From: Collibacillus ludicampi | GTDB taxonomy: Bacteria; Bacillota; Bacilli; Tumebacillales; BOQE01 | Assembly (NCBI RefSeq): GCF_023705585.1 | Contig: NZ_BOQE01000001.1 | Span: 62,001-126,000, forward strand | DNA: 64,000 bases | Reading direction: 5' to 3' | Part shown: one piece after another, positions 1-42,785 of the stretch | How the letters are laid out: each line of letters opens with the position of its first letter | How positions within the stretch are numbered: position 1 is the first letter of the stretch | Translations under genes and position numbers: made by a program | The notes under the pieces: generated by a model | Told to the model about the DNA's origin: nothing | Database searches by the model: none | Seen by the model: only the letters and a program-made list of their open reading frames with translations

Positions 1-99
1 GACGAAATCCCAGCCAACGCAAGCGCAATTTTGATTGATAAAGTGATTACTTACGTCGCCTTGGCTTTCATAAAAAGCGCCTATTCCATATACAGCCAT
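1..99 (-). CDS. Partial hypothetical protein (N-terminus only), accessory element
   Basis: Thirty-three codons on the minus strand run off the left edge without a stop. The start ATG has a purine-rich GGAAGGA about 8 bases upstream. The protein begins MAVYGIGAFYES and goes on with a cysteine-containing stretch ending CVGWDF. From memory this opening resembles short proteins that start with a Y-G-I-G-A-Y/F-Y pattern and are found on phages and mobile elements; I cannot name a function. The opposite strand is also open across this span but has no initiator in view. Confidence 0.5.
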   Translation of the reverse strand, partial: MAVYGIGAFYESQGDVSNHFINQNCACVGWDFV

Positions 100-292
100 A
101 AAATCATTCCTTCCATTGAAATTATGAGTTTATTATAATAATTACGATTTGCATTGACAATGTTCACCAATTTATCACTTGTCCATTTGCTAGGGCGTGT
201 GTCGAAGGTATTACCATGTTGGGAATACCTGTACGTGAAGTAGATGCGAAAGTTTCTGCGCAACCGTCCGAGCGGGCGGCGAACTTAGACTT

Positions 293-581
293 TTGGACAG
301 TTTTGTCCAACCTCACTCCACATTGGGCTTCGTACTTCACGCCCCCCTATCCACTACACACAATCCTATTACGCCAGCGTAACGTGTCATCTCCTATAAT
401 CCGCGCTACATCAACGATCAACGTATGCGTGTATTCTTTTACTCAATGATGAGTAAAACTCTCCTCCTTCAAGAAGGAGACTTTCTCCTATTCTCGTTCA
501 ATTGGACACTCAATCACGAAATCCCAATAGTGACGCGGTTTTTCGGGTTTTGCGCTTCGTTAAATGTCCAACGATGTCCAA
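293..581. promoter_or_regulatory. Cluster of five TTGGACA / TGTCCAA motifs
   Basis: TTGGACA at 293-299 and its inverse TGTCCAA at 304-310 form an inverted repeat with a 4-base spacer. TTGGACA recurs at 502-508, and TGTCCAA occurs twice in direct orientation at 565-571 and 575-581, ten bases apart. The stretch 100-917 otherwise holds no supportable gene. The spacing suggests sites for a dimeric DNA-binding protein, possibly one encoded on the element; which protein is unknown. Confidence 0.4.
464..479 (+). terminator. Weak hairpin, possible terminator
   Basis: Six-base stem CTCCTT/AAGGAG with a CAAG loop, followed by the T-rich stretch CTTTCTCC. It is weak and no gene clearly ends just before it. 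Confidence 0.2.
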
Positions 582-744
582 TCATATACTATTAATATAT
601 TAACTATTTACGATGATACACGCTTTATTGATTTGTAGGCGTTGCGTGTATGGGTGTATATGTATTTATATGTAGTACTTTTTTATCATAGTAAAGCATT
701 AAAGTATATCGCATATATTACCATATTGTAACATTCTCTAATGC

Positions 745-813
745 TTACTATATTGTGCATCAGATACTTACTATAGTATACTTTAGATGACTACTATAGT
801 GTGCAACGTATCC
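745..813 (+). repeat. Three iteron-like direct repeats with a 23-bp period
   Basis: Units start at 745, 768 and 791, exactly 23 bases apart, with the shared core YTACTATA followed by K-T-R-T-R-C-W. A weaker copy (TTACCATATTG) starts at 718 and an inverted TATAGTAA lies at 818-825. They sit about 100 bases upstream of a winged-helix protein gene. Direct repeats of about two helical turns next to an initiator gene are typical of iteron origins and of initiator operators. Assignment as an origin is inference. Confidence 0.5.
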
Positions 814-917
814 CTTTTATAGTAATCATAAACTATACTCATACAACTAGACTCATAACTATACGCAATTTACTATTCGTCGCGCTATCGCTCGACGTTG
901 ATAAGGAGTCGTACACA

Positions 918-1349
918 ATGTCGAATAAATCTACGATTGAAGAGTTGAAGAATGAATATGCCGAATGGAAATTTCAATCGCTGGAGCAATCGAATGAGAA
1001 AGCTAACGGTATCGGTTTTGGTGCGATATTCAACGGTTTTGCAAAATACTTACCTGATCTAACGGGCGCAGATTTAAAGGTTTTTATTACATTGTTGTTA
1101 CGTGCTCACAACAATTATGGACACACTACAGTAACCACAGAAACAATAACGGAAGATACAGGATTGAGCAAAAGCGCCGTTGACGGAGCAATTAAACATT
1201 TAACGGAACTTGGTTTGATCAAACGTTTCCGTCGTGGATTGAGTCAATCATCTATCACAATTTTACGTCCATATGATCCATCGTGGGATCGATTGAAAAA
1301 GAAAACCAATCCACCAGCAGAAATCGAAAACGATGATGAAATAAATTAA
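918..1349 (+). CDS. Winged helix-turn-helix protein, Rep/DnaD-like DNA-binding protein
   Basis: A 143-residue protein. The ATG at 918 is preceded by AAGGAG at good spacing; an open frame extends further upstream but lacks a ribosome site and runs into the repeat array. Residues about 45-115 read as a winged helix: a helical L-T-G-A-D-L-K-V-F segment, a recognition segment TEDTGLSKSAVDGAIKHLTE and a short wing. The tail is charged and low in complexity. Domains like this occur in plasmid replication initiators and DnaD-like proteins. Its position behind the 23-bp repeats suggests an initiator or autoregulator. It could also be a plain transcription factor. A terminator follows. Confidence 0.7.
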   Translation: MSNKSTIEELKNEYAEWKFQSLEQSNEKANGIGFGAIFNGFAKYLPDLTGADLKVFITLLLRAHNNYGHTTVTTETITEDTGLSKSAVDGAIKHLTELGLIKRFRRGLSQSSITILRPYDPSWDRLKKKTNPPAEIENDDEIN

Positions 1350-1352
1350 AAA

Positions 1353-1378
1353 GGTGCCATTCAATTGGCACCGGTTTT
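1353..1378 (+). terminator. Rho-independent terminator after the winged-helix gene
   Basis: Stem GGTGCCA/TGGCACC with a 6-base loop, then CGGTTTTCC, starting just after the stop codon at 1349. Confidence 0.7.
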
Positions 1379-1412
1379 CCTCGTTCCCCAAAACAATCAG
1401 CATATATCCCCT

Positions 1413-2423
1413 TTAACTCTTCTCTGATAGCTTCATGATTTCTGCTCTTATAGATTTCTTAACGATATGTTCTAGAACAATGTAAGCACCTTTACATAAT
1501 TTTATTTCATCGTTTAATTCAGAACCATGAATTATCGGGTTTCGGATCGCATACAAGCAGAACATAAAGTTTTGGGCCGTTTTTACTTTATCTACAGATT
1601 GAATGCTTTTCGAAAGCTCATCTGAGATAGGAAAATTATCCCACAGCGTTAGCTTTGAACTTATAAGATTAAATATTATGGTATCTTTCTTCTGCACAAG
1701 TGAGTCGACATAATCTACAATAAATGGATTGCGCGCAAAATTTTTAATAGTTTGTCTTTCTGTCGTCTTTTTGTATAAATTATATATCGCATTTAAAGCT
1801 GTCCATAATAAACGGTATTTAGAAATAACTTCATATATCAGAAACCCATCAGTATGCCCAACTTGCTGCGCTCCTATTAACCAAAAAAAGGAGCGTTGAA
1901 TTGCTGAAATGCGTTCGTGGTTTTTCTGTTGTAGCGTTGCACGATCAAGTTTTATCACGAGATGAATTAGATTCTTACTGAAATCGTTTAAGTCCAATTT
2001 TAATGGATTTTGTGGGTGTTCGCCGCACTTAACTTTCTTTTCTTTAAGAACTTGCACGTCAATATGATTAAGCCCTCTATAAGTAATTAAATTAATTGAA
2101 GGCTCAAAATATGGAAGAAAGGGTAATTTATCTTGGCTAGAGTTTGTTATGGCTAAAGTATTACGAATCATCGGTATTAAATGCGAGTGTATAAAAGTTT
2201 CACCGAGAAATAAATCATCAAGTTGATTTAGTTCTACGGTTACGCTCCCCTTTACATGGGTTTGATTCCGGGTGGGCATAAATTCTATATAATCAAGTTT
2301 TGCATTTTTAAAGTGAATTTGACTTACAATTTCAGGATTCAGATGCCCCTCCATCTCACATCCTGTAACATCAAATGAAAATTCTAAGGTATACGATTTC
2401 ATTGATGATATTCCCTGAGTCAT
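1413..2423 (-). CDS. HEPN-type protein (putative nuclease or toxin)
   Basis: A 336-residue protein with no clear family over its first 280 residues. Near residue 300 it has RNPIIHG, which fits the R-x4-H signature of HEPN RNases and of the Apea-like HEPN branch, within a helical C-terminus. HEPN proteins often act as RNases in toxin-antitoxin, abortive infection and restriction-linked systems. The gene lies about 100 bases downstream of a small XRE-type regulator on the same strand, a common arrangement for such modules. ATG at 2423 overlaps the TGA of a short upstream open frame; ATG at 2402 is an alternative start. Function is inference from one motif and context. Confidence 0.6.
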   Translation of the reverse strand: MTQGISSMKSYTLEFSFDVTGCEMEGHLNPEIVSQIHFKNAKLDYIEFMPTRNQTHVKGSVTVELNQLDDLFLGETFIHSHLIPMIRNTLAITNSSQDKLPFLPYFEPSINLITYRGLNHIDVQVLKEKKVKCGEHPQNPLKLDLNDFSKNLIHLVIKLDRATLQQKNHERISAIQRSFFWLIGAQQVGHTDGFLIYEVISKYRLLWTALNAIYNLYKKTTERQTIKNFARNPFIVDYVDSLVQKKDTIIFNLISSKLTLWDNFPISDELSKSIQSVDKVKTAQNFMFCLYAIRNPIIHGSELNDEIKLCKGAYIVLEHIVKKSIRAEIMKLSEKS

Positions 2424-2524
2424 TTGCTTGTCACCGCTTCCCCTCGATACATTAGCTCTTCAATATCCGTGATAACTAAACTTTTGCCTCCTGGACGAAA
2501 TGATAACGATTGATCGTATTTTCG

Positions 2525-2737
2525 TTAATTTTGTTTTCTAGCTTTTACATGCTGAATCACGTCTTGTATCTCACATTCCAGCACTGTACATATATCATCT
2601 AAGACCTTCATTGATACCGGTTCATCCTTGGCGATCTTAGCAATAGTTGCTGAAGATGCCCCTATCATCCTTTTCAATTCTGTTCGGCTTATCCCCTTTT
2701 TGTGTAATGTTGCGGCCAATGGAGCGTATGAAAACAT
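2525..2737 (-). CDS. Small XRE/YozG-like helix-turn-helix regulator
   Basis: Seventy residues, nearly all one HTH domain: helix 2-turn-recognition helix covers about residues 18-38 (RTELKRMIGASSATIAKIAK), followed by the typical EPVSMKVLDDICTVLECEIQDVI. The start has GAGGGG 8-9 bases upstream. It precedes the HEPN-type gene on the same strand and is divergent from the small-protein genes starting at 2924, so the 2738-2923 gap probably carries both promoters. Likely a repressor of its own operon or the antitoxin of the pair; which of these is not shown by sequence. Confidence 0.75.
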   Translation of the reverse strand: MFSYAPLAATLHKKGISRTELKRMIGASSATIAKIAKDEPVSMKVLDDICTVLECEIQDVIQHVKARKQN

Positions 2738-2923
2738 ATAATCAACCCCTCATTTGTCAATTTCCATCAATACAATATCATAAACATTTAGTTTAACAAA
2801 GTAAACATATGTTCGCAATAATAAACTTTTTGCTTGACTAGCATAATTAACAAGTTGTATCATATGTTTAGAAATCTAAACCAAATGTTTATAAAACTGA
2901 ACGACTTATGGGGGTGTGCGTGG

Positions 2924-3145
2924 ATGATTCGGGTGAACGACGAATGGGTCGGACAAGCAGAACCTAATCTTCGCAGAGACGACAAACTAGATCGATGTGT
3001 GGAGCTTGCATCTATTTTGGTGGACTCGTATAACACATACCTTGAACTAGCCGCTGATTGCGATGACGACGACTCTGTTTTACACGTGAAGAGACTTGTT
3101 GAGCGTATTGCGAAAACCGTAGGTCGCGCGACTACAGCCATATAA
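2924..3145 (+). CDS. Small acidic protein, paralogue 1
   Basis: Seventy-three residues from ATG 2924, which follows a GGGGGTG ribosome site; an in-frame TTG at 2834 would add 30 residues of doubtful quality. It shares a pattern with the next protein: A-[ED]-P-x-L-R-x-D near the start, then E-L-A-x-L/I-x-V, then Y-x-E-L-A-A-D, then K-x-L-V-x-x-I and a C-terminal G. It looks all-helical and is acidic. I do not recognise the family. The tandem arrangement points to a local duplication. Confidence 0.6.
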   Translation: MIRVNDEWVGQAEPNLRRDDKLDRCVELASILVDSYNTYLELAADCDDDDSVLHVKRLVERIAKTVGRATTAI

Positions 3146-3160
3146 GAAGGAGTGGTGATA

Positions 3161-3391
3161 ATGAACATTCACTACAATGACGAGCTGATTCAACCAATTA
3201 GACAAGCCGATCCTGATTTGCGTAACGATACGAGATTGCTTCATTATGCCGAATTGGCCGAACTTTTCGTCCAGACATTTGAGGTGTATTATGAACTCGC
3301 GGCAGATAGAAATGTGTCAGATACTCACATCCAAAACACAAAAAATTTGGTGCGCTTCATTGGTAATATGTTGTCAGGAATTGATATATGA
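3161..3391 (+). CDS. Small acidic protein, paralogue 2
   Basis: Seventy-six residues from ATG 3161, eight bases after AAGGAG; the gene starts 15 bases after its paralogue stops, so the two are probably co-transcribed. Shared residues with the upstream protein include QADPDLRNDTRL against QAEPNLRRDDKL and YYELAAD against YLELAAD. Predicted helical; no known catalytic motif. The TGA overlaps an ATG of the next frame (ATGATGA). Function unknown. Confidence 0.6.
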   Translation: MNIHYNDELIQPIRQADPDLRNDTRLLHYAELAELFVQTFEVYYELAADRNVSDTHIQNTKNLVRFIGNMLSGIDI

Positions 3392-3465
3392 TGAATCATT
3401 GTATTATGCACTATTCCCACCCAAAAAGTTCCCGAATTGATTCAACAACTGAGGTGATTGTCGAT

Positions 3466-3636
3466 ATGAGACAGAAGGAATGTGAGTTTATCATCCTTGT
3501 TGAAAAAAGAGAGACAAAAAACGGTGAACTTTCGCAAGAGACAAAAGAAGCTTTGGAACGTACTTATAACCTGATTACTTACTTATACAACAAATACGGA
3601 CATAAATACTCTCAAACTGGTGTTGAGGATATGTAA
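3466..3636 (+). CDS. Small protein of unknown function, third gene of the cluster
   Basis: Fifty-six residues from ATG 3466, nine bases after GAGGTG. A longer start at 3388 overlaps the previous stop and has a weaker AGGA, and would add 26 residues that look like translated spacer. The protein has a charged beta-like start (ECEFIILVEKRE) and a tyrosine-rich helical end (TYNLITYLYNKYG). It is not clearly homologous to the two genes before it. A terminator follows, so 2924-3636 is probably one short operon. Confidence 0.5.
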   Translation: MRQKECEFIILVEKRETKNGELSQETKEALERTYNLITYLYNKYGHKYSQTGVEDM

Positions 3637-3657
3637 TAATATCATGTAGGCAAAAAC

Positions 3658-3690
3658 AACCACTCGCATACCAAACGTGAGTGGTTTATT
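3658..3690 (+). terminator. Rho-independent terminator of the small-protein operon
   Basis: Stem AACCACTC/GAGTGGTT followed by TATTTG. The terminator at 5022 uses nearly the same stem, suggesting that parts of this element share a common origin. Confidence 0.65.
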
Positions 3691-3834
3691 TGTGGCTCCA
3701 ATAAAGTGTTATTATATAGAAACAACGACAATTTTTTTAAATAACAGAATGAAAAATATTGTATAATATCCATAAGTATCTAACTTATCTGTTTGTTATT
3801 TTATTTCTCTACATATTATAAGGAGATGGTTGCT

Positions 3835-4656
3835 ATGAGAAAATGGGGTAAGGTAGGAACAGGAATCGTCATTACTACAATTGTTATGAGTATGACAGGT
3901 TGCGGGGGAAGTAGCGCAACAACTAGTTCCTCAAATGTTCCAAAAGTTACGGAAACAAATAAGGCTCAATTCTTACAGGATGCGGATAAGTTTAAGGGTG
4001 CTGACGCCACATTGCAAGGCAAAGTGTTTATCGGTACTAAGAATATTGGTGATATGACCGCTTTTCAAATGCAAGTTGATAATCATAATGTCGTCGTAAA
4101 TCTTAACGGACAAAACGCGGATATCAAGGAAAATGACTTTGTAGAAGTAACTGGAAGAGTGCAGGGTGTGATGGAAGGCACTAATGCATTTGGTGCAAAA
4201 ATCTCTGCTCCGGTGATACAGCTTGAATCTGTGAAGAAGATCGATCCTTTAAGTGTATTATCACCGACAATCAAAAGTCTTCAAGTCGATAAAACGTTGG
4301 ATCAGCACGGTCTAAGTTTAACCGTTAATAAAATCGATTTTGCAAAGGATGAACAAAGAGTATATATAACAATCAAGAACGGTACCCAGAATAAAGCTTA
4401 TTTTTTCGTATTTGAAGCTAAAGCAGTTCAGGATGGACAGCAATTAGATTCGAAGATTAGTGATCATGTAATTGATGCCAAAGAAACGTACAAGGAGATT
4501 CCAAGCGATCTGCTGCCAGGCGTATCGGCAAATGGCGTAATAGTGTTTAAAGGACTTTCTCCTGATAAACCATTTAAACTAACTCTCAGCGCACATACCG
4601 ATGATTTCGAAACTAATTTTAATCCGTACACTTTTGATATACCTGTAGCGAAATAA
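3835..4656 (+). CDS. Lipoprotein with OB-fold-like and DUF4352-like regions
   Basis: A 273-residue secreted lipoprotein. ATG 3835 follows AAGGAG by nine bases; upstream in-frame codons overlap the ribosome site. A positively charged start and a hydrophobic core end in the lipobox MSMTGC, so the cysteine near residue 22 should be lipidated. Residues about 40-130 read as an OB-fold-like domain (ADATLQGKVFIG to FVEVTGRVQG). Residues about 150-270 read as an immunoglobulin-like DUF4352-type domain with the tail NFNPYTFDIPV. Cargo of the accessory element; perhaps an envelope or surface-exclusion function, but that is not shown. Confidence 0.7.
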   Translation: MRKWGKVGTGIVITTIVMSMTGCGGSSATTSSSNVPKVTETNKAQFLQDADKFKGADATLQGKVFIGTKNIGDMTAFQMQVDNHNVVVNLNGQNADIKENDFVEVTGRVQGVMEGTNAFGAKISAPVIQLESVKKIDPLSVLSPTIKSLQVDKTLDQHGLSLTVNKIDFAKDEQRVYITIKNGTQNKAYFFVFEAKAVQDGQQLDSKISDHVIDAKETYKEIPSDLLPGVSANGVIVFKGLSPDKPFKLTLSAHTDDFETNFNPYTFDIPVAK

Positions 4657-4661
4657 AAAAC

Positions 4662-4690
4662 AAACCACGTCACATTCGGCGTGGTTTTTA
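4662..4690 (+). terminator. Rho-independent terminator of the lipoprotein gene
   Basis: Stem AAACCACG/CGTGGTTT with a 10-base loop and following T residues, directly after the TAA at 4656. Confidence 0.75.
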
Positions 4691-4812
4691 ATGTTCCCGC
4701 AATGATTGTGTGTTTGTATTTTTATAAATAAACTGTTAAAGTTTTATGCTCCACAAAATTCTCCAACATTTTACAAATTCCGCATGTATCCTAAGTATTA
4801 GGAGGTGAATAT

Positions 4813-5022
4813 ATGAGAACAAAATTATGGGAAAATTATAATCTATTATTCCTTTTCACGAACGATCCTTCGCTAATGCAGAAGATAGAAACAGAATATC
4901 CAGAGTTTAAAGAATTTGCGTTGTACAAAATTAAAGGATTGATTCGTGCTCGCCAATATATTGTTCCGAAACACATGAAGGAAATAGCTGAGCAATTGGT
5001 AAATATCAACGTTATACAATGA
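4813..5022 (+). CDS. Small hypothetical protein (69 aa)
   Basis: Starts at ATG 4813 behind a strong AGGAGGTG and ends in a TGA that forms the foot of a terminator hairpin. The sequence is mixed aromatic and basic (LWENYNLLFLF at the start, KIKGLIRARQY in the middle), predicted helical, with no signal peptide. I do not recognise a family. The strong ribosome site and immediate terminator make it a real single-gene unit. Confidence 0.6.
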   Translation: MRTKLWENYNLLFLFTNDPSLMQKIETEYPEFKEFALYKIKGLIRARQYIVPKHMKEIAEQLVNINVIQ

Positions 5023-5043
5023 CCACTCTCCTGAGTGGTTTTT
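5022..5043 (+). terminator. Rho-independent terminator
   Basis: Stem ACCACTC/GAGTGGT, loop TCCT, then TTTTTG, overlapping the stop codon of the 69-aa gene. Confidence 0.8.
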
Positions 5044-5377
5044 GTTTATTTGTAAATCGGATTACATACTTATTCCGCATTTGTCATTTACACTGTACAC
5101 ATATCACCCTTACCCCATTGCACACTGGGCAACATGTTTCATTCTACCCCCTGCTGCGCGGTCATCACGACTGCGCTTTTTTTACGATAATAGGGCTGTA
5201 AATAGGTGTTAAACAGTAGAGACACGCATTTATAGCGTGCCTCTGATGATGTGAAGAGCGGAGAGAGTTGTTGTTGAACTGTCGTCGCCAAACTTATTGT
5301 AGTTGATGAATGTATAGCCTACATTGACTATCTGTTAAGAATTATTAACTGATAGATGTGAATAACAAATGTTGTGT

Positions 5378-5485
5378 AAAAAAATGGCCGCTCACATATC
5401 ATCGTGAGCGGTTGAATTGTTAAGGAGGTTGAGGCGGGGGCCGTATAGCTGTGCTTACCCGCACTTCCGTCATACCAGATTTAAT
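5378..5485 (-). ncRNA. Candidate small RNA or remnant of a type I toxin-antitoxin locus
   Basis: The gap 5044-5669 has no supportable gene. Within it, the minus strand shows a GC-rich inverted pair (GCGGG/CCCGC) and then a hairpin CCGCTCAC/GTGAGCGG (5388-5411) followed by CCATTTTTTT, a terminator-like 3' end. On the plus strand the hairpin is followed by AAGGAGG and a GAGGCGGGGGCCGTATAGC stretch. From memory this order recalls the 3' regions of holin-like type I toxin loci of Bacilli (TxpA/RatA or BsrG type). No intact toxin frame is visible upstream. Confidence 0.35.
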
Positions 5486-5669
5486 TGTAACAACTAATAA
5501 TTTAATTTATGTTAAACAAATGTGAGTTTTATATTAACTCTTGTATATCTTTCACAATCGTAATAGGCACAATCAACCCACCATCGTAACAGTTTTTGTG
5601 TCGGACATGCATTTCAAAAAGTTTATTCCATATTCTTTAACCAAAAAAACTTTAAGGGAGATGGGGGAT

Positions 5670-6014
5670 ATGGTAACATCCATTACTCTTGTAGGAGGAG
5701 CCATTTTTGGGGTAACAATCTATGGATTGGTTCGTACGTCCATACGATATCGTTTACGACAAGCTCTATTCCAATCCGGTGTATATCATGATCATAGAAA
5801 AAGGACTGGGAAAAATGAGATCAAAGAATGCTCTATTAAATCTATTTTAAAAACTCCCGATGGGTACGATGTAACTTTACTTTTCCCAGTAGGTTTATCA
5901 GTTAAAAAGCTTATCGACAAACTGGATGTAATTGAAATGGCTGTGAACGGAAGGATTGATAAAAATAAAATTACTGTGGATGGAAGATATGTACGGATAT
6001 TAATTGAATATTAA
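5670..6014 (+). CDS. Single-TM protein resembling an ATPase N-terminal module
   Basis: One hundred fourteen residues from ATG 5670, eight bases after AAGGGAG. Residues 1-22 are a likely membrane segment (VTSITLVGGAIFGVTIYG), followed by a basic stretch. Residues about 60-114 have the pattern GYDVTLLFPVGLSVKKL, a helix, then ITVDGRYVRILI. This resembles, from memory, the small alpha/beta domain before the motor of FtsK-like conjugative ATPases. It is convergent with the VirD4-like gene and may supply a membrane-anchoring part in trans. Family assignment is inference; otherwise an unknown membrane protein. Confidence 0.55.
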   Translation: MVTSITLVGGAIFGVTIYGLVRTSIRYRLRQALFQSGVYHDHRKRTGKNEIKECSIKSILKTPDGYDVTLLFPVGLSVKKLIDKLDVIEMAVNGRIDKNKITVDGRYVRILIEY

Positions 6015-6126
6015 ATTAAGTACAATTTTCTTACACGATAACTAATTTCATATAGCATATCGATCACCCTCACCGTATTGTTTTTCCTTCTTTGATATAC
6101 AAGTAAATGTGTTATCGTAAAAAAAA

Positions 6127-6145
6127 GACCCTCCTAAAGAAGGTC
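6127..6145 (-). terminator. Terminator of the ATPase operon
   Basis: On the minus strand, GACCTTC/GAGGGTC (one G-T wobble) followed by eight T residues, just downstream of the ATPase stop codon. Confidence 0.7.
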
Positions 6146-6147
6146 GT

Positions 6148-8364
6148 TCACTCTATTGCGCTTGGCGGTGGCGTCATTTTAGCCATGAACGGCGTCACTG
6201 TCACTCCGCCTGCTCTTATTACATTGATCGCATAATGTCTTGGCGTTTTCATTGCCTCTTCAACCGTGAATGGTGCAATCTCTTCAGCAAGATCACGGAG
6301 GATATTTTTACTCGTTGTATATATGTGATAATGTGGCCCCGCTGCTTTGATCGTTTCCGTTAGTTTGCGCGGTACTTGATCCCATAGGTGGAACATCCAT
6401 ATAAGTCCGAGTCGCCATTTCCTTGTCTCTACGGCCATTCGTTCCCAACGTGCCGAACAACTTTTGAATTGGTGTGGCTCATCCATGATTACGAAACATG
6501 GCGCCTGTTCTTCTTCTGGGCGTGCAAACATCGCCAATTCAATCTTAGCCATGAGGAAGTCCACGAGTATATCAACCGCTTCAGCACCAAGCCCGTCAAT
6601 GCCTCCTTTTGGCACGTGAATACGGACATGATATCCGCCCGTTAGCCATTTGCGAAAATCCAACGACTCCCCAACCTCTAAGCATTCACGTAAGTAATCG
6701 TCGCCTTGTAGCATATCCAGCCGATTCAACACAGGTTCCATAACTTTACCTTTCATGCCTGGACTTAGCTTTTCATACGTTTCCCATTCGCTCGCTATGT
6801 CGGTTCTATCTTTTTCTTTGAGTCGTTTGATCATGTCTTCTCTATACTCCTCACTACGGAACATGTCAAAAATATCACTCAATGTTCCACCGAGTACTCC
6901 TACTGTTTTACCTGCTAATCGGATATATCGTGATGTTTCGACACCTGCATCAGCGCTATGCAAGTTGAAGAAATTTAATACTTCACCCGCCAATCTGTTA
7001 GCTGCACGTTTACCTAACATCCCTTCTATCCAATCAAGTCGATATGCCTTTTCGCCGAACTTCAAGTGAATTATTTTATCATCTGGTACTCCACGACGTT
7101 TTGCTCCTATTTCAATTTCTGCACCGAGTTCGTCTTTTGCCACATCGATACTAATCACAGAGAATCCGTGTGCTATCGCTTGAGCGCCAAAATTGCCACC
7201 AAATCCGCGTGTTTTACCCGTTCCCATGCCCCCTATAACTATTCGCGGCAAACACAATTCATCATGGTCGTGGATCGGGATATACACTGACTCCGATTCG
7301 CCTCTAAATGTATGTTCACCAATTTGGATTCCACCGCTTAACACGCTTACAGGTAAATCACTTTCGCGATGCTGAACACTTGATAATCCATATTCCTCTT
7401 GTAATTGCCCGGTTGGAAGTTGCAATAATCTCGCTACTTCAGGTATGGACAAGTAATCAGCGTTTATTTTTAACCGTGGCGGTTTCCTATTCACGACTGA
7501 CAGCCACCATTTAGACATATTTTTGATCGGTTTAGCTAGGAATCCATTATCCTTATCCAAGTCACGAAACGCAGTAGATAATGCGTTTAAAATCACCTCT
7601 CGCCTGCCTGGATCGTGCGACATTGACGCGACTCGAATCGTTACATCAAATGCAGCATACTTCGTTTTTTGTAGCGTCGCAGATGAAAGCGTTCTGTCGA
7701 GGTACAATTTCGATGGTAGATCAACCGGTTCAGGTTCAATTTCTTTGCCTGTTATGATTTCGGCCACTAATGCTGAAGTGTGCAATGCGATTCCAGCGCC
7801 AAACTTAGCTATACCTTCGGCTATTGATCGTCCATCGACACCTATCCTTTTCGGCTGCCCTCCATCTTTCAACTTGTCGTATGCTGCTTTCGCTCCTTCG
7901 CTCCAATCCTTGTCTGCTTGAACGAGTATCATTTGGATTAATCCGCGTTCACCTTCTTGTAACATGCGCAATGTTTCTAAAATAGTCGATATAGGTGCCA
8001 GAGAGCGTCGATCAACATGAATGGCATACATGTAATGTTCCCGTAAATGTAAGTCTGCACCTGAAATATTCGACAACCAGTCGTTCAACGGATCATGCTC
8101 TATGTCTTCTGTTGTTACACGTGGCCAGGTCGTATTGATATGCTGCTCAACAATTGTTCTCGTGTGCGACGGAGTATGCAACATTACTTCTGCTTTATTT
8201 GGCGCTAAATGCCATTCCAATACAACATAATTCTGGGGTGCCACATCGATACGCCAACCGGTGCGATTCATACGTTCAATGAGAGGTTTATATAACGAGT
8301 GCAAGCCAGTAGCAAATGATTCAACGTCAGCATTTGTTAAACGTCTGTCCGGTATCAGTCGCAA
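6148..8364 (-). CDS. VirD4/HerA-like P-loop ATPase (coupling-protein-like)
   Basis: An open frame of 793 codons reaches up to 8529, but its first part overlaps the well-supported upstream gene, and its homologous part seems to begin near LRLIPDRRLTNADVESFATG; the first usable in-frame codon there is TTG 8364 (about 738 residues). Walker A GGMGTGKT lies in the middle and Walker B FVIMDEPHQF towards the end; W-R-L-G-L-I-W-M-F-H and a later T-T-S follow as in DNA-pumping ATPases of the VirD4/HerA class. Such proteins link DNA to a secretion channel or move DNA. No transmembrane segment is visible; the small membrane proteins next door may provide one. No relaxase is present in the window. Confidence 0.7.
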   Translation of the reverse strand: MRLIPDRRLTNADVESFATGLHSLYKPLIERMNRTGWRIDVAPQNYVVLEWHLAPNKAEVMLHTPSHTRTIVEQHINTTWPRVTTEDIEHDPLNDWLSNISGADLHLREHYMYAIHVDRRSLAPISTILETLRMLQEGERGLIQMILVQADKDWSEGAKAAYDKLKDGGQPKRIGVDGRSIAEGIAKFGAGIALHTSALVAEIITGKEIEPEPVDLPSKLYLDRTLSSATLQKTKYAAFDVTIRVASMSHDPGRREVILNALSTAFRDLDKDNGFLAKPIKNMSKWWLSVVNRKPPRLKINADYLSIPEVARLLQLPTGQLQEEYGLSSVQHRESDLPVSVLSGGIQIGEHTFRGESESVYIPIHDHDELCLPRIVIGGMGTGKTRGFGGNFGAQAIAHGFSVISIDVAKDELGAEIEIGAKRRGVPDDKIIHLKFGEKAYRLDWIEGMLGKRAANRLAGEVLNFFNLHSADAGVETSRYIRLAGKTVGVLGGTLSDIFDMFRSEEYREDMIKRLKEKDRTDIASEWETYEKLSPGMKGKVMEPVLNRLDMLQGDDYLRECLEVGESLDFRKWLTGGYHVRIHVPKGGIDGLGAEAVDILVDFLMAKIELAMFARPEEEQAPCFVIMDEPHQFKSCSARWERMAVETRKWRLGLIWMFHLWDQVPRKLTETIKAAGPHYHIYTTSKNILRDLAEEIAPFTVEEAMKTPRHYAINVIRAGGVTVTPFMAKMTPPPSAIE

Positions 8365-8369
8365 ACCAA

Positions 8370-8735
8370 TTAATTCATGCTGCGTCCTACGTCTCCCACT
8401 ATTGACATTATCCCTGGAACCAATTGCATCCCGATGTATCCGATTGCCGACCATTTGATCATGTTGATTCCTCGATGACGTTGCCCAACTGTGATCAGCA
8501 GCATTCCCCCCGCCATCGACATGAAACACACTGGATAGCTGAGGGCTTGAATGATATGAATCAGTGGATCGAAAGCGTGGATGATTCTGTCGGTCGTTAC
8601 TGCTTGTGCTGGAATCGACGGAAGCACTGTTGACGCCGCCACAGCCATAGGAAGAAGCGATGACGGCTTTTTGTACTTTGGGTGTACATCACCTACGAAG
8701 AAAGCGTTCCAGTCTAAGACTTCCATTTTTCTCAT
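8370..8735 (-). CDS. Small membrane protein of a transfer module
   Basis: One hundred twenty-one residues from ATG 8735, behind GAGGTG; GTG 8744 is a weaker choice. The N-terminus is soluble (EVLDWNAFFVGDVHPKYKK). Two hydrophobic segments follow, around LSYPVCFMSMAGGMLLITVG and WSAIGYIGMQLVPGIMSIVG. The size and two-helix hairpin recall VirB2/TrbC-like or PrgI-like small secretion-channel subunits, but I see no diagnostic motif. Its TAA at 8370-8372 meets the presumed start of the ATPase gene, so the two are one operon. Confidence 0.65.
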   Translation of the reverse strand: MRKMEVLDWNAFFVGDVHPKYKKPSSLLPMAVAASTVLPSIPAQAVTTDRIIHAFDPLIHIIQALSYPVCFMSMAGGMLLITVGQRHRGINMIKWSAIGYIGMQLVPGIMSIVGDVGRSMN

Positions 8736-8801
8736 GACATTCACCTCGCATAGTGCTTTGGAATTTGAAACATACTGGAAATGTAAAAAGGAGGAGACGA
8801 C

Positions 8802-8891
8802 ATGCCTGCACTCGTTGTAATTGGAAAAGTTATGTTCTGGGGTGGAGCTGCGTTACTCGGAGCAAAAATTTTGGTTGATGTATTAACCTGA
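8802..8891 (+). CDS. 29-residue single-span membrane peptide
   Basis: ATG 8802 follows a strong AGGAGG (8790s) at good spacing, and the frame ends in TGA at 8889-8891. The peptide is almost wholly hydrophobic: it starts MPALVVIGKVMFWGGAALLG and ends with AKILVDVLT. It is divergent from the ATPase operon. It could be a small channel subunit, a holin-like or regulatory peptide. Its shortness limits certainty, but the ribosome site and composition favour a real gene. Confidence 0.55.
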   Translation: MPALVVIGKVMFWGGAALLGAKILVDVLT

Positions 8892-8941
8892 CACGCATCT
8901 TTTCAGACTGACACGCATAGGCTGATACCATCCCATCAGCC
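8888..8941. repeat. Direct repeat plus hairpin, oriT-like
   Basis: CTGACACGCAT occurs at 8888-8898 and again at 8908-8918, exactly 20 bases apart. A perfect inverted repeat GGCTGAT/ATCAGCC (8920-8926, 8935-8941, 8-base loop) follows at once. This lies between a small membrane peptide gene and a ribbon-helix-helix-like protein gene. Repeats beside an inverted repeat and an RHH gene are the usual build of a transfer origin, but without a relaxase in view this is inference; an operator is the alternative. Confidence 0.4.
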
Positions 8942-8954
8942 ATTGAGCGATACT

Positions 8955-8983
8955 ACACCCTTCGGTTCAGAGGGGTGTTTTTA
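8955..8983 (+). terminator. Terminator after the 29-residue peptide gene
   Basis: Stem ACACCC/GGGTGT (8955-8960, 8973-8978) followed by TTTTTATTTT. Confidence 0.7.
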
Positions 8984-8985
8984 TT

Positions 8986-9213
8986 TTATTTGTTCGGTTG
9001 TTGAGGTGATTGATATGTTATTGCGTTCGATTGATTAAATGTTTGTTGTAATGACTGCTGTTGTGCTGCACGCATTCGTTGGAGTTCTGCTGCGAGGAAG
9101 CGTTTAACGAGTTTACTGAAGTTCGTCTTCGTTACGATTTGTTCGTACATGGCACGTTGCTCGGGATCATCCAGCTTAAAAATGATCGTTTTTCTTACCT
9201 CTCCGTAAGTCAT
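8986..9213 (-). CDS. Ribbon-helix-helix-like accessory protein
   Basis: Seventy-five residues with a clear AGGGGGATG ribosome site. The first 45 residues (VRKTIIFKLDD, a helix EQRAMYEQIV, then FSKLVKRFLAAEL) fit a beta-strand plus two helices, as in RHH or CopG/ParR-type DNA-binding proteins. The tail is glutamine-rich (QQQSLQQTFNQ) and probably disordered. With the repeat/hairpin at 8888-8941 close by, a relaxosome or partition accessory role is plausible. Alternatively a small regulator. Assignment rests on pattern, not on a confirmed family. Confidence 0.5.
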   Translation of the reverse strand: MTYGEVRKTIIFKLDDPEQRAMYEQIVTKTNFSKLVKRFLAAELQRMRAAQQQSLQQTFNQSNAITYQSPQQPNK

Positions 9214-9357
9214 CTAATCATCCCCCTACACGATTGTTCGATTGTGCATGCTTTAGATGGTTAAACATTTGTTATGTGTGTGCTGAAATGTTCGATTGAT
9301 TGTTTGATGGTAAATATGTATTTTCGCATAACCTAAAAATGCGTGTCCAAATAAAAA

Positions 9358-9376
9358 AATCCGCTGGTAGCGGATT
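9358..9376 (-). terminator. Terminator of the XRE regulator gene
   Basis: On the minus strand, AATCCGCT/AGCGGATT with a 3-base loop followed by TTTTTTT. It overlaps the stop codon. Confidence 0.75.
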
Positions 9377-9566
9377 ATTCTTCCTGCCAAATATCTTCAA
9401 CTTTCAAATCTAGAACTTTTGCTATTCGTATTGCCGTGGGTAAAGTAGGTAAACTTTCACCACGAACAATTTGACTCATTGCGGATGTCGATAGCCCAAC
9501 CCTTTCGCATAACCACTTTTGCTTAATTTTTCTTTCCGCAAGTATCACAGGTAATTTACACTTCAC
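9375..9566 (-). CDS. XRE-family transcriptional regulator
   Basis: Sixty-three residues from GTG 9566, eight bases after GAGGTG; a longer open frame upstream has no ribosome site. The whole protein is one Cro/C1-type HTH: LPVILAERKIKQKWLCERVG, recognition helix STSAMSQIVRGE, then LPTLPTAIRIAKVLDLKVED. Regulators of this size control prophages and integrative elements. It lies downstream of the recombinase gene, separated by a terminator, and probably controls the element's own promoters. Targets are unknown. Confidence 0.8.
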   Translation of the reverse strand: MKCKLPVILAERKIKQKWLCERVGLSTSAMSQIVRGESLPTLPTAIRIAKVLDLKVEDIWQEE

Positions 9567-9620
9567 GGTTCCCCACCTCACGAATTGATTCGCTGTAAAG
9601 GTGGGTATTATCCTGCTTGA

Positions 9621-9650
9621 AAAGCAAAAAAATACCGCCAAGACGGCGGT
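9621..9650 (-). terminator. Terminator between recombinase and XRE gene
   Basis: On the minus strand, ACCGCC/GGCGGT with a 5-base loop, then ATTTTTTT. It would end the recombinase transcript. The surrounding gap 9567-9875 otherwise holds only very short frames without convincing ribosome sites. Confidence 0.7.
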
Positions 9651-9875
9651 CATATTTGATAATTGGCGTGGATATGATCTATAGTGATTCCTGTCTTACA
9701 TGTATCACCACTCTTGCGTCAATAGAAAATGATACAACATGTGATGAGCAGAAATATATCTTTGAGCAGATTCATTAATTGAGAGCAGAGCGAGAGTCAT
9801 TCCAATATCAAAAGACATGTTTAGCATAATTAGTCATTGTCCCATATTTTTGTAAGTAGCATGGTACACACCCCT

Positions 9876-10850
9876 TTATATATCCATAAAAGCAAGTGGA
9901 CTGTGTTTTTGATACTTTTTGCCCACTTCTTCATCCGTAAAATCAAGATAAGCTTTTTGTGTAACCTCAACGGATGAATGTCCCATGATTCTTGAAAGCG
10001 TGAACCAATCTCCACCATTCAAGATATAATACTTGGCGAAATTATTCCTTAGTAAATGCGGGTGAATATCAACACCCACACTTTTCCCTGCATCCCTTAA
10101 TGCTTTCTCGTAATTTCTGATTTCCAGTTGAGTCCCTTTTGTGGTTGGAAAAAGCCACTGACTATCCGAATATCGATCTTTATATTTGAGCCATGATTTC
10201 AACTCTCTCGCCATTTTAGGTGAAAAGTACACGTAACGCTGTTGTTTATTCTTTGGATTGACAACCAAAATACTCCTATGTTCAAAGTCGATATGCTCTG
10301 GAAGGATACTCAAACATTCACTTACTCGTAATCCAGTATCTAATAGTAAACGTGTTATCTGGAAATTTCTATAACCATGAAATGTTGTCTTATCAAAAGC
10401 ATCTAACACTTTTTTAAAATCCTCTGGCGAAAGTGTTTTCTTCATCTTTCTTTCCACTTTCACATTCTCCACTTTTTCAGCAGGATTCTTTTTTATTTCT
10501 TGTTCAACATCATGCAGATAATTAAAAAATACTTTGATGTTACGGATGTAGTTTGCAATTGTCGTATCTGAAATTTTCTTGCCATAATCTGTTCTGTTTT
10601 GCGGATGATTAAATTGCTCTTTACTTGGATCAACAGAAACGCTATACTTTCCTCTTTCTTTTAGATACTTGATGTAATGTCGGATATGACCTGATTGCAC
10701 CTTTTCAACTTCCGTTATTTGGTGTTCTCGTTCTAAATAAACCGCAAACAATCTCAGTGATTGCTCATAACTTGCAAGTGTTTTTTTCGACAAATTCTTT
10801 GAAGTACAGTACAACATAAAATTTTCAATCTGAAATTCAATGTCAGTCAT
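9876..10850 (-). CDS. Tyrosine recombinase (site-specific integrase)
   Basis: Three hundred twenty-four residues from ATG 10850, nine bases after AAGGGGTG. An N-terminal SAM-like core-binding domain (about 1-100) precedes the catalytic domain. Catalytic residues visible in order: R in TGLRVSECL, K in NPKNKQQRYV, H-x-x-R in HPHLLRNNFA, H in MGHSS and the nucleophile Y in KAYLDF. Overall XerC/D-like in layout and size, though the insertion between core-binding strands and the location make it an element integrase and not the housekeeping Xer. It is the last accessory gene before spo0A, transcribed the same way. The cognate attachment core is not identified. Confidence 0.9.
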   Translation of the reverse strand: MTDIEFQIENFMLYCTSKNLSKKTLASYEQSLRLFAVYLEREHQITEVEKVQSGHIRHYIKYLKERGKYSVSVDPSKEQFNHPQNRTDYGKKISDTTIANYIRNIKVFFNYLHDVEQEIKKNPAEKVENVKVERKMKKTLSPEDFKKVLDAFDKTTFHGYRNFQITRLLLDTGLRVSECLSILPEHIDFEHRSILVVNPKNKQQRYVYFSPKMARELKSWLKYKDRYSDSQWLFPTTKGTQLEIRNYEKALRDAGKSVGVDIHPHLLRNNFAKYYILNGGDWFTLSRIMGHSSVEVTQKAYLDFTDEEVGKKYQKHSPLAFMDI

Positions 10851-10857
10851 AATAAAA

Positions 10858-10906
10858 AACACCCCTTATCAGTTGGTTTCTTTGAACCCAATGAATAAGG
10901 AGTGTT
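10858..10906 (-). terminator. Nested hairpin between spo0A and the integrase, covering the integrase ribosome site
   Basis: AACACCCCTTAT (10858-10869) and ATAAGGAGTGTT (10895-10906) match in 11 of 12 positions as an inverted repeat; inside, TTGGTTTC/GAACCCAA match in 7 of 8. On the minus strand the stem is followed by a T run, so it can act as the spo0A terminator. The same stem holds the AAGGGGTG used by the integrase. It may also be part of the recombination site. Confidence 0.55.
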
Positions 10907-11013
10907 AGTTGGTGTCTATACCAGAAATTTATGGGCATAAAAAGAAATTAGTTGGCAAAATTGTTCTGGATGTTAATTTCACCCAATCCTCAAATCCCTT
11001 GCCACGTATGGCC

Positions 11014-11790
11014 TCACGAAATCTTCGCCTCGATCCTCAACTTATCCGCCACCATGGCAATAAATTCCGAATTAGTAGGTTTGCTCTTGCCGATGTTTAC
11101 CGTGTAACCGAATACGGCACGGATGGCTTCGACATTCCCCCGGCCCCAAGCCACTTCGATTGCATGTCGAATCGCTCGTTCGACCCGAGATGGTGTTGTG
11201 TTATATTTTTCTGCGATTTTCGGATAGAGAACTTTCGTGATGGAACCAAGTATTTCAACATCCTTGTATACCATACTAATCGCTTCCCGCAGATAATGAT
11301 AACCTTTGATATGGGCGGGGACCCCGATCTCATGGATCACGTTCGTGATGGATGCATCGACGTTCTTGCCACGTGTCATAATGACCGGTTTGGGGCCTCC
11401 GGAAGAAAGGCCCGGTGTACGAACCAGCTGCCGAATTCGATTCGCGAGGATGTCCATGTCAAACGGCTTCAAGATATAATAGGCGGCTCCCAGTTCGAGG
11501 GCTTTCTTGGTGATGTTATCTTGTCCGAATGCTGTGAGCATGATCACTTTGGGTTCGGGGGTGAGATTCATGCTTTGAATCTTCTCAAGAACACCGATAC
11601 CGTCAAGTACAGGCATGATGATATCCAAAATGATGACATCAGGCTGATGATTCGTCAATTGCTCGATGACTTCGTTCCCGTTATGCGCAATACCTACGAC
11701 TTCCATGTCACGTTGTTCGACGATAAACTCCTTCAATAAATCGGTGAATTCGCGGTTATCATCCGCAATTAAAACCTTAATTTGGCGCAT
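11014..11790 (-). CDS. spo0A: Sporulation master regulator Spo0A
   Basis: A 258-residue response regulator that receives phosphate from Spo0B and switches on sporulation genes. Receiver domain residues 1-120: acidic pocket D10/D11, phospho-acceptor D56 in [14 protein letters not shown] in VIMLTAFG and K in YILKPFD. The Spo0A-C DNA-binding domain (about 150-258) has the recognition helix in [20 protein letters not shown] strong AGGAGG precedes the ATG. spoIVB and recN lie upstream, the usual Bacilli order; an integrase follows about 160 bases downstream, which is not usual. Consensus 0A boxes in its leader suggest autoregulation. Confidence 0.97.
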
Positions 11791-42575: not shown

Positions 42576-42576
42576 C

Positions 42577-42785
42577 TCTGTCCTGTAACCTGAGAGTTCT
42601 CCTTCCTACATACGCTAACAGAAGTTGATCATCTTCGTAGGAAGGTTGCCCCTTTGGTGGCTGTAACAGCGCTCTCCAGAGTTACGTCCCATCACGGTAC
42701 TTTTGCCTGAGAGATTCGTGAAAGTTGGGTGGCTTCCACTTGCTCCTTCGGCGTCGCAAACGCGCTCTCTCCCGTGATGATCATC
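42577..42785 (-). ncRNA. Tandem glycine riboswitch upstream of gcvT
   Basis: Two aptamers in a row on the minus strand. Aptamer 1: GGGAGAGAGCGC, GCCGAAGGAGCAAG and AATCTCTCAGGCAAAAGTACC. Aptamer 2: TCTGGAGAGCGC, GCCACCAAAGGGGCAACC and AACTCTCAGGTTACAGGACAG. These are the conserved parts of the glycine-responsive element, which turns on the cleavage operon when glycine is high. Together with the terminator it fills most of the gap 42428-42880. Confidence 0.95.

Follow-up and report, generated by a model that had tools for sequence, protein, structure and literature searches.

An element at the 3' end of spo0A with a terminator-like hairpin before its integrase gene: a possible RNA switch whose halves are joined by excision

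Transcripts entering IS10 and IS200 from outside reportedly fold in such a way that the ribosome site is hidden, which gives protection from impinging transcription, and in the circular form of ICEclc the promoter Pcirc is said to reach the integrase gene. We know of no hairpin in ICEclc which combines a terminator with a ribosome site and has a matching far-end RNA. For intB13 of ICEclc, Pcirc is given as lying at the far end (PMC2892462). In Tn916, terminator T1 shields the genes of the element from transcription that comes from the host, its stem abuts the first start codon, and the promoter Porf7 and the cis RNA antiterminator canT lie at the other end and are active only after excision (PMC11658703). 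In that element orf24 lies behind T1, canT is 341-452 nt long and processive, with direct pairing being no explanation of its action, and insertion is bound to no single site (PMC11658703). The skin element is located in the sporulation gene sigK and carries a large serine recombinase; it interrupts sigK and its excision restores the gene (PMC5025042). In open-licence PMC full text no report was found of spo0A as an attachment site, hence this absence is weak. The same literature gave no report for 'Pcirc' together with 'circular form' and nothing useful on transposase ribosome-site hairpins.

The window, that is the whole stretch of DNA analysed here, comprises 64,000 nucleotides (C1:62001-126000) of the 4.09 Mb genome of Collibacillus ludicampi (G000). 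The host gene spo0A is located at 11790-11014 on the minus strand; its product matched the Pfam families Spo0A_C (E 1e-44) and Response_reg, and both its reading frame and its stop are intact. The integrase gene int (10850-9876, minus) encodes 324 aa with a Phage_integrase catalytic domain (PF00589, E 1.4e-30, 106.8 bits against a cut-off of 27.1) and N-terminal SAM-like domains, the N-terminal matches being to Phage_int_SAM families only. Alignment with relatives revealed R175, K200, H265, R268, H291 and Y301 as the catalytic set, invariant across the four aligned members, in the R, K, H, R, H, Y pattern of tyrosine recombinases. The protein is a tyrosine recombinase of the phage integrase family. 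The program-made list of open reading frames begins int at an in-frame GTG (10862) within the Shine-Dalgarno region, and the start at ATG 10850 agrees with the aligned relatives. The leader from spo0A to int (10851-11013, minus) contains repeats of a CCRATAAA-like motif with a hairpin after them. An earlier note on this DNA had placed the integrase about 160 bases downstream of spo0A on the same strand, as part of an integrated element. The gap from the spo0A stop to the int ATG was found to be 163 nt with both genes on the minus strand, and the element was borne out by a second copy of the spo0A 3' end, which marks its far end. Two tandem glycine riboswitch aptamers were also observed elsewhere in the window (42576-42784, minus).

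The second copy was obtained by searching the own genome with the junction; it is on one strand with the first and gives an element size of 35.8 kb. The direct repeat is exact over 99 bp and extends to 107 bp including one mismatch, its near copy (the attachment block) being at 11011-11117 on the minus strand and its far copy at C1:37251-37357, outside the window. Positions 1-11010 of the window belong to the element, and the remainder (C1:37251-62000) is on the same contig. Right behind the spo0A stop lies CAAGGGATTT (10992-11001, minus), and its inverted match AAATCCCTTG adjoins the far repeat (C1:37371-37380). The sequence beyond the far repeat is unlike that of the leader and carries another hairpin with a T run, probably the displaced spo0A terminator. 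These target direct repeats at both ends point to a site-specific integrated element, whose integrase would take the 3' end of the spo0A coding sequence for its attB; the explanation of which this forms a part is, as a whole, believed slightly more than it is doubted.

The cargo of the element includes a large serine recombinase, an ATP-dependent DNA ligase, a Ku protein, an Mrr-type nuclease and regulators, along with a phage tail tape-measure protein. A pilin-like match was below the cut-off, a VirD4-like ATPase was recognised by eye without a Pfam hit, and a Pfam scan of 19 element proteins gave no relaxase. The element does not clearly belong with conjugative elements or with prophages. 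The serine recombinase gene (C1:37929-39605; L003:17929-19605) is located about 0.6 kb inside the far end and represents a second recombination system. The ligase gene adjoins the divergent Ku gene (L004:904-2842; C1:40904-42842), as in bacterial end joining. A 23-nt repeat occurs three times head-to-tail at 741-809 of the window, just before and into the ORF of an HTH_36 protein (801-1349); these repeats are iteron-like and possibly mark a replication origin of the element.

The association of this integrase with spo0A was analysed in other genomes. In all five named relatives (Paenibacillaceae bacterium ZCTH02-B3, Paenibacillus thermotolerans, P. albidus, Desulforamulus aquiferis and Cohnella laeviribosi) spo0A is directly upstream of the integrase, and the integrase stands behind spo0A at 8/8 loci L066-L073. 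Upstream of int, spo0A or a spo0A 3' fragment was found at 41 of 42 loci, and likewise at the 42nd, L037, in a separate look. Every close relative found of the window integrase adjoins spo0A or a 3' fragment of it; the distant integrases (about 26-29%) at L038, L039, L040 and L043 had no spo0A upstream. At E 1e-60 the integrase was present in 9 of 398 genomes of the class and 2 of 398 genomes of the phylum, the own genome being counted in each, and in 25 of 392 genomes in the order of G309, a set which overlaps in genomes with the class set. A pattern search for the spo0A 3' end in 32 genomes, own included, found it at least twice on one strand and contig in 21, with a second copy on another contig in 2 and as a single copy in 9; the reversed control pattern had no match in the 32 genomes, and the spacing of the copies is about 4 to 36 kb. 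G063, G064 and G009 are further genomes with two copies on one strand and contig. In Paenibacillus albidus the repeats are separated by 12.6 kb. Several elements can occupy one site, as in G1073, where at least three additional 3' fragments come after the full spo0A, each with an integrase behind it. This array corresponds to L133-L135, L153 and L154 (G1073:C51:262001-362000), and related integrases (29-31%) were seen on the opposite strand beside two of its 3' fragments. At L062 (G062:C64:5444-5601) two spo0A 3'-end copies lie 113 bp apart at the far end, a minimal tandem of attachment sites. Two draft genomes, those of Desulforamulus aquiferis and Paenibacillus thermotolerans, seem to have a broken spo0A frame (L047:5560-5600 and L045:5630-5650), which could be sequencing error. 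Phage, plasmid and viral collections held no close integrase, all matches being below 60% identity and those listed at most about 31%, and viral contigs gave no integrase match. When an empty site was searched by DNA flank in 100 genomes of the G1105 genus, the flank was found in G1105 alone and no cross-species empty site was obtained.

The hairpin before int extends from about 10906 to 10858 on the minus strand. Its 5' arm is AACACTCCTTAT (10906-10895, minus) and its 3' arm, GATAAGGGGTGTT (10870-10858, minus), runs into the T run and holds the Shine-Dalgarno sequence AAGGGGTG (10867-10860), which is followed by TTTTTTATT and then by the ATG (10850-10848). This confirmed what had been noted before, a terminator-like hairpin with a T run and a ribosome site in its 3' arm. 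The leader set was made from 42 loci by removing 7 and adding L013, giving 36; left out were L072, L091, L094, L095 and L097 (int start lost or a repeat) and L074 and L075, taken as the same species as L045 and L046. Setting aside the near-identical L079, L083 and L088 and 7 type-2 leaders gave 26 type-1 leaders. The fold of the window leader compared with shuffles showed z of -2.6 over 181 nt and -5.4 over the last 63 nt, and over the last 63 nt the type-1 leaders ranged from -3.3 to -9.1 with a median of -5.8 (n=26, the window's L036 included). In these 26 leaders the Shine-Dalgarno region is within the 3' arm; at the 7 loci of the second type, the ribosome site is separate from the terminator-like hairpin and further on. 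Covariation was calculated on an alignment of 28 matches that was fitted to the hairpin model, and 16 of 20 pairs were altered on both sides with 91.7% of cells pairing; none of 500 shuffles reached any of the measures and slid versions were far lower. A simple terminator scan, which needs a single stem with a loop of 3-8, gave nothing at the window hairpin, whose stem carries an internal loop. Both features of an intrinsic terminator, a stable hairpin and a T run, are present before int, so the hairpin is described as intrinsic-terminator-like and termination in the cell is predicted.

The covariance model of the hairpin matched 48 of 149 genomes at E 0.001. All 30 loci listed from this search adjoin spo0A or its 3' fragment, as do 10 of the 15 weaker places fetched, the other 5 of 15 lying elsewhere. 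Many of the hairpins behind spo0A have no integrase, and behind 11 of 34 such hairpins remnants of a window-type integrase were found. A strong ribosome site was present in 26/26 hairpins with an int start, 7/11 with int remnants and 10/23 with nothing, the retention differing between int-bearing hairpins and int-less ones without remnants (p=0.0002). As the ribosome-site counts fall with int loss, terminator and ribosome site part company. Since the hairpin outlasts the integrase, it seems to owe some of its value to ending spo0A transcripts and to stay as the spo0A terminator. These scars suggest a mobile-element origin for the spo0A terminators in many Paenibacillus-like bacteria.

Promoter-like sites were compared between the gap and the far end. 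Between spo0A and int neither a consistent sigma-A-like site nor any notable promoter-like site was present, the best promoter score of the leaders being 6.37 against 7.91 for shuffles (sd of means 0.44). The lack of a consistent site and the scores below those of shuffles led to the rejection of an IS10-like int promoter within the gap or hairpin. At the far end of the own element an outward promoter-like site, TTGACA-17-TATATT, is located at C1:37501-37473, with 11/12 matches in an independent scan, and similar sites occur at the far ends of other elements. Of the 28 far ends available, the promoter test used 24 and the pairing test 20 (type 1); two near-duplicates (G818 and G933) were omitted, and G953 and G1073e1 had no leader. 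With generic hexamer weights, 14 of 28 far ends had a score that no more than 3 of 100 shuffles attained. The outward score exceeded the inward one at 22 of 24 far ends (12.2 vs 8.5, p=3e-5), and 2 of 24 had no better outward promoter. The predicted promoters point out of the integrated element and, in the circle, would point across the joint at int.

Downstream of the far-end promoter-like site lies a segment, D (C1:37438-37407), which is complementary to the hairpin 5' arm. The 5' arm with its flanks (H5, 10908-10880, minus) can have either of two partners, the 3' arm or D. For the own element the pairing energy of AUUUGAACCCAAUGAAAUAAGGAAGAAUUAGG with CUAACACUCCUUAUUCAUUGGGUUCAAAG is -31.0 kcal/mol, compared with -24.9 for the best among 588 other segments of that element. 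Over the 20 type-1 elements the mean D:H5 energy was -24.3 for cognate and -17.4 for swapped pairs (p=5e-5); the own D was top-ranked for 11 and among the top two for 14, and at most 1 of 100 shuffles paired as well in 13 of 20. The cognate signal stayed when the shared motif was masked, in 17 elements and in 13 non-redundant ones (each p=5e-5). In this test L083 was reused as the G1006 leader, and for G1071 the far copy at 90943 was used, the nearer, decayed one at 89817 being set aside. Four of the 20 elements (G219, G327, G1006 and G1071) gave no convincing cognate pairing; the G1006 far end suits the hairpins of other elements better and may be the end of a tandem neighbour. Among G000, G063 and G064, D is the best partner within the element for G000 alone; G063 and G064 each contain other segments that pair equally well or better. 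In folds of nascent RNA, with the 3' arm unmade, pairing of the 5' arm with the far end had a mean of 0.66 compared with 0.23 for a shuffled far end (20 elements, 240 shuffles). In the full circle RNA at equilibrium, again with all 20 elements, the terminator was clearly lost in 6/20, G000 among them, and a run with a shorter RNA start on the 16 well-pairing elements gave a clear loss in 4/16. Since the terminator is favoured at equilibrium in most elements, kinetics, that is folding during transcription, would be needed for the rest. Attenuation by upstream motif copies pairing with the 5' arm was also considered; these copies are better read as repeated DNA motifs.

The following mechanism is proposed. 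Because a copy of the spo0A 3' end comes with the element, insertion would preserve Spo0A as a whole protein, and the old downstream DNA of spo0A with its terminator-like hairpin would be shifted to the far side. The element's own hairpin would then end the spo0A transcripts and, in any read-through RNA, would hide the int ribosome site. In an integrated copy, where spo0A would be the source of any RNA arriving at the hairpin, that RNA meets a terminator-like hairpin as well as a hidden ribosome site, which gives the arrangement the shape of an insulator. This lock would open solely in the circle, where the far-end promoter would face int over the joined ends and the integrase would be put to use. 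There D, the start of the far-end RNA, would pair with the hairpin 5' arm ahead of the synthesis of the 3' arm, preventing the terminator and freeing the int ribosome site; integration would part promoter and D from int and switch it off again. That a terminator and ribosome-site lock against spo0A is opened in the circle by a far-end promoter and antiterminator is considered to stand just past an even chance. An RNA sensor of the circle, with the halves of the switch at element ends tens of kb apart, joined by excision, and with a relic left as spo0A terminator, is proposed more tentatively and is somewhat more doubted than believed. The RNA step on its own is placed a little short of an even chance, and the insulator function is held with higher confidence.

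A serious rival, although on balance an unlikely one, is that the complementarities of the ends are inverted integrase sites on attP and that int is controlled by the integrase itself; the RNA hairpin may then be partly a by-product of an inverted site pair by int, with which termination of spo0A transcripts is compatible. The CCRATAAA-like motif does recur in the leaders as well as at the far ends, the inner stem of the hairpin consists of two inverted copies of it, and CAAGGGATTT and AAATCCCTTG are inverted around the repeats. The D:H5 mismatches of the 16 well-pairing elements had no G-U excess over A-C (22/250 vs 22/218, p=0.64), which fits DNA sites and gives no help to the RNA reading, as RNA selection might predict an excess. 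However, the outer stem covaries as RNA, has the ribosome site and ends in the T run; the cognate matching extends past the motif, the hairpin outlives the loss of int, and an outward promoter-like site is located ahead of D.

The earlier note had suggested that the element could sense spo0A expression; on this reading, sporulation-raised read-through from spo0A would yield integrase and tie excision to sporulation. The constant position of int in line behind spo0A, the gap with no consistent promoter-like site and the fact that terminators are never perfect are in its favour. It is nevertheless given little credence, since the conserved hairpin blocks the read-through route twice and is retained behind spo0A where the integrase has been lost, and the promoter-like site and the candidate opener are at the far end; moreover, the orientation of int is set by the attachment site, so that no regulatory reason is needed for it. 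The sensing idea gives way to insulation together with a likely int switch confined to the circle. Least probable of all is a native spo0A terminator that predates the element and was used by integrases by chance, for although a like hairpin lies behind spo0A in many int-less genomes and 40 of 45 places examined adjoin spo0A, int-bearing ones included, the integrase remnants behind int-less hairpins, the other sequence found at that place in some relatives of the window's order and the different hairpin after the own genome's far copy speak against it.

To our knowledge spo0A is close to universal in endospore formers, and it would therefore offer a docking site over a very wide host range, here Bacilli and Desulforamulus. 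The proposed circle-only switch, if true, would explain the silence of an integrase gene standing in line with a regulated host gene, and would permit a direct test of how such a gene senses that it resides in a circle. As with skin, a mobile element is found at a sporulation gene; unlike skin, the recombinase at the junction is a tyrosine recombinase, spo0A is intact, and the serine recombinase is inside the element (C1:37929-39605), so that a skin-type serine recombinase element breaking the frame of its target was not what was found. The locus differs from IS10 and IS200 in that the hairpin is also terminator-like and the candidate opener is at the other end of the element. As in ICEclc, the integrase would be driven from a far-end promoter, here a predicted one; ICEclc uses a tRNA site and occurs in proteobacteria, from which the spo0A element differs. 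A Tn916-type gene order with a transfer module behind the terminator was not seen, the integrase being there instead; further differences from Tn916 are the candidate opener, which measures about 30 nt and matches the 5' arm by complementarity, and the site in spo0A. The closest likeness is with T1 and canT of Tn916: a terminator at the element end, here a probable one, insulates, and a promoter and an opener, here predicted, are placed at the opposite end.
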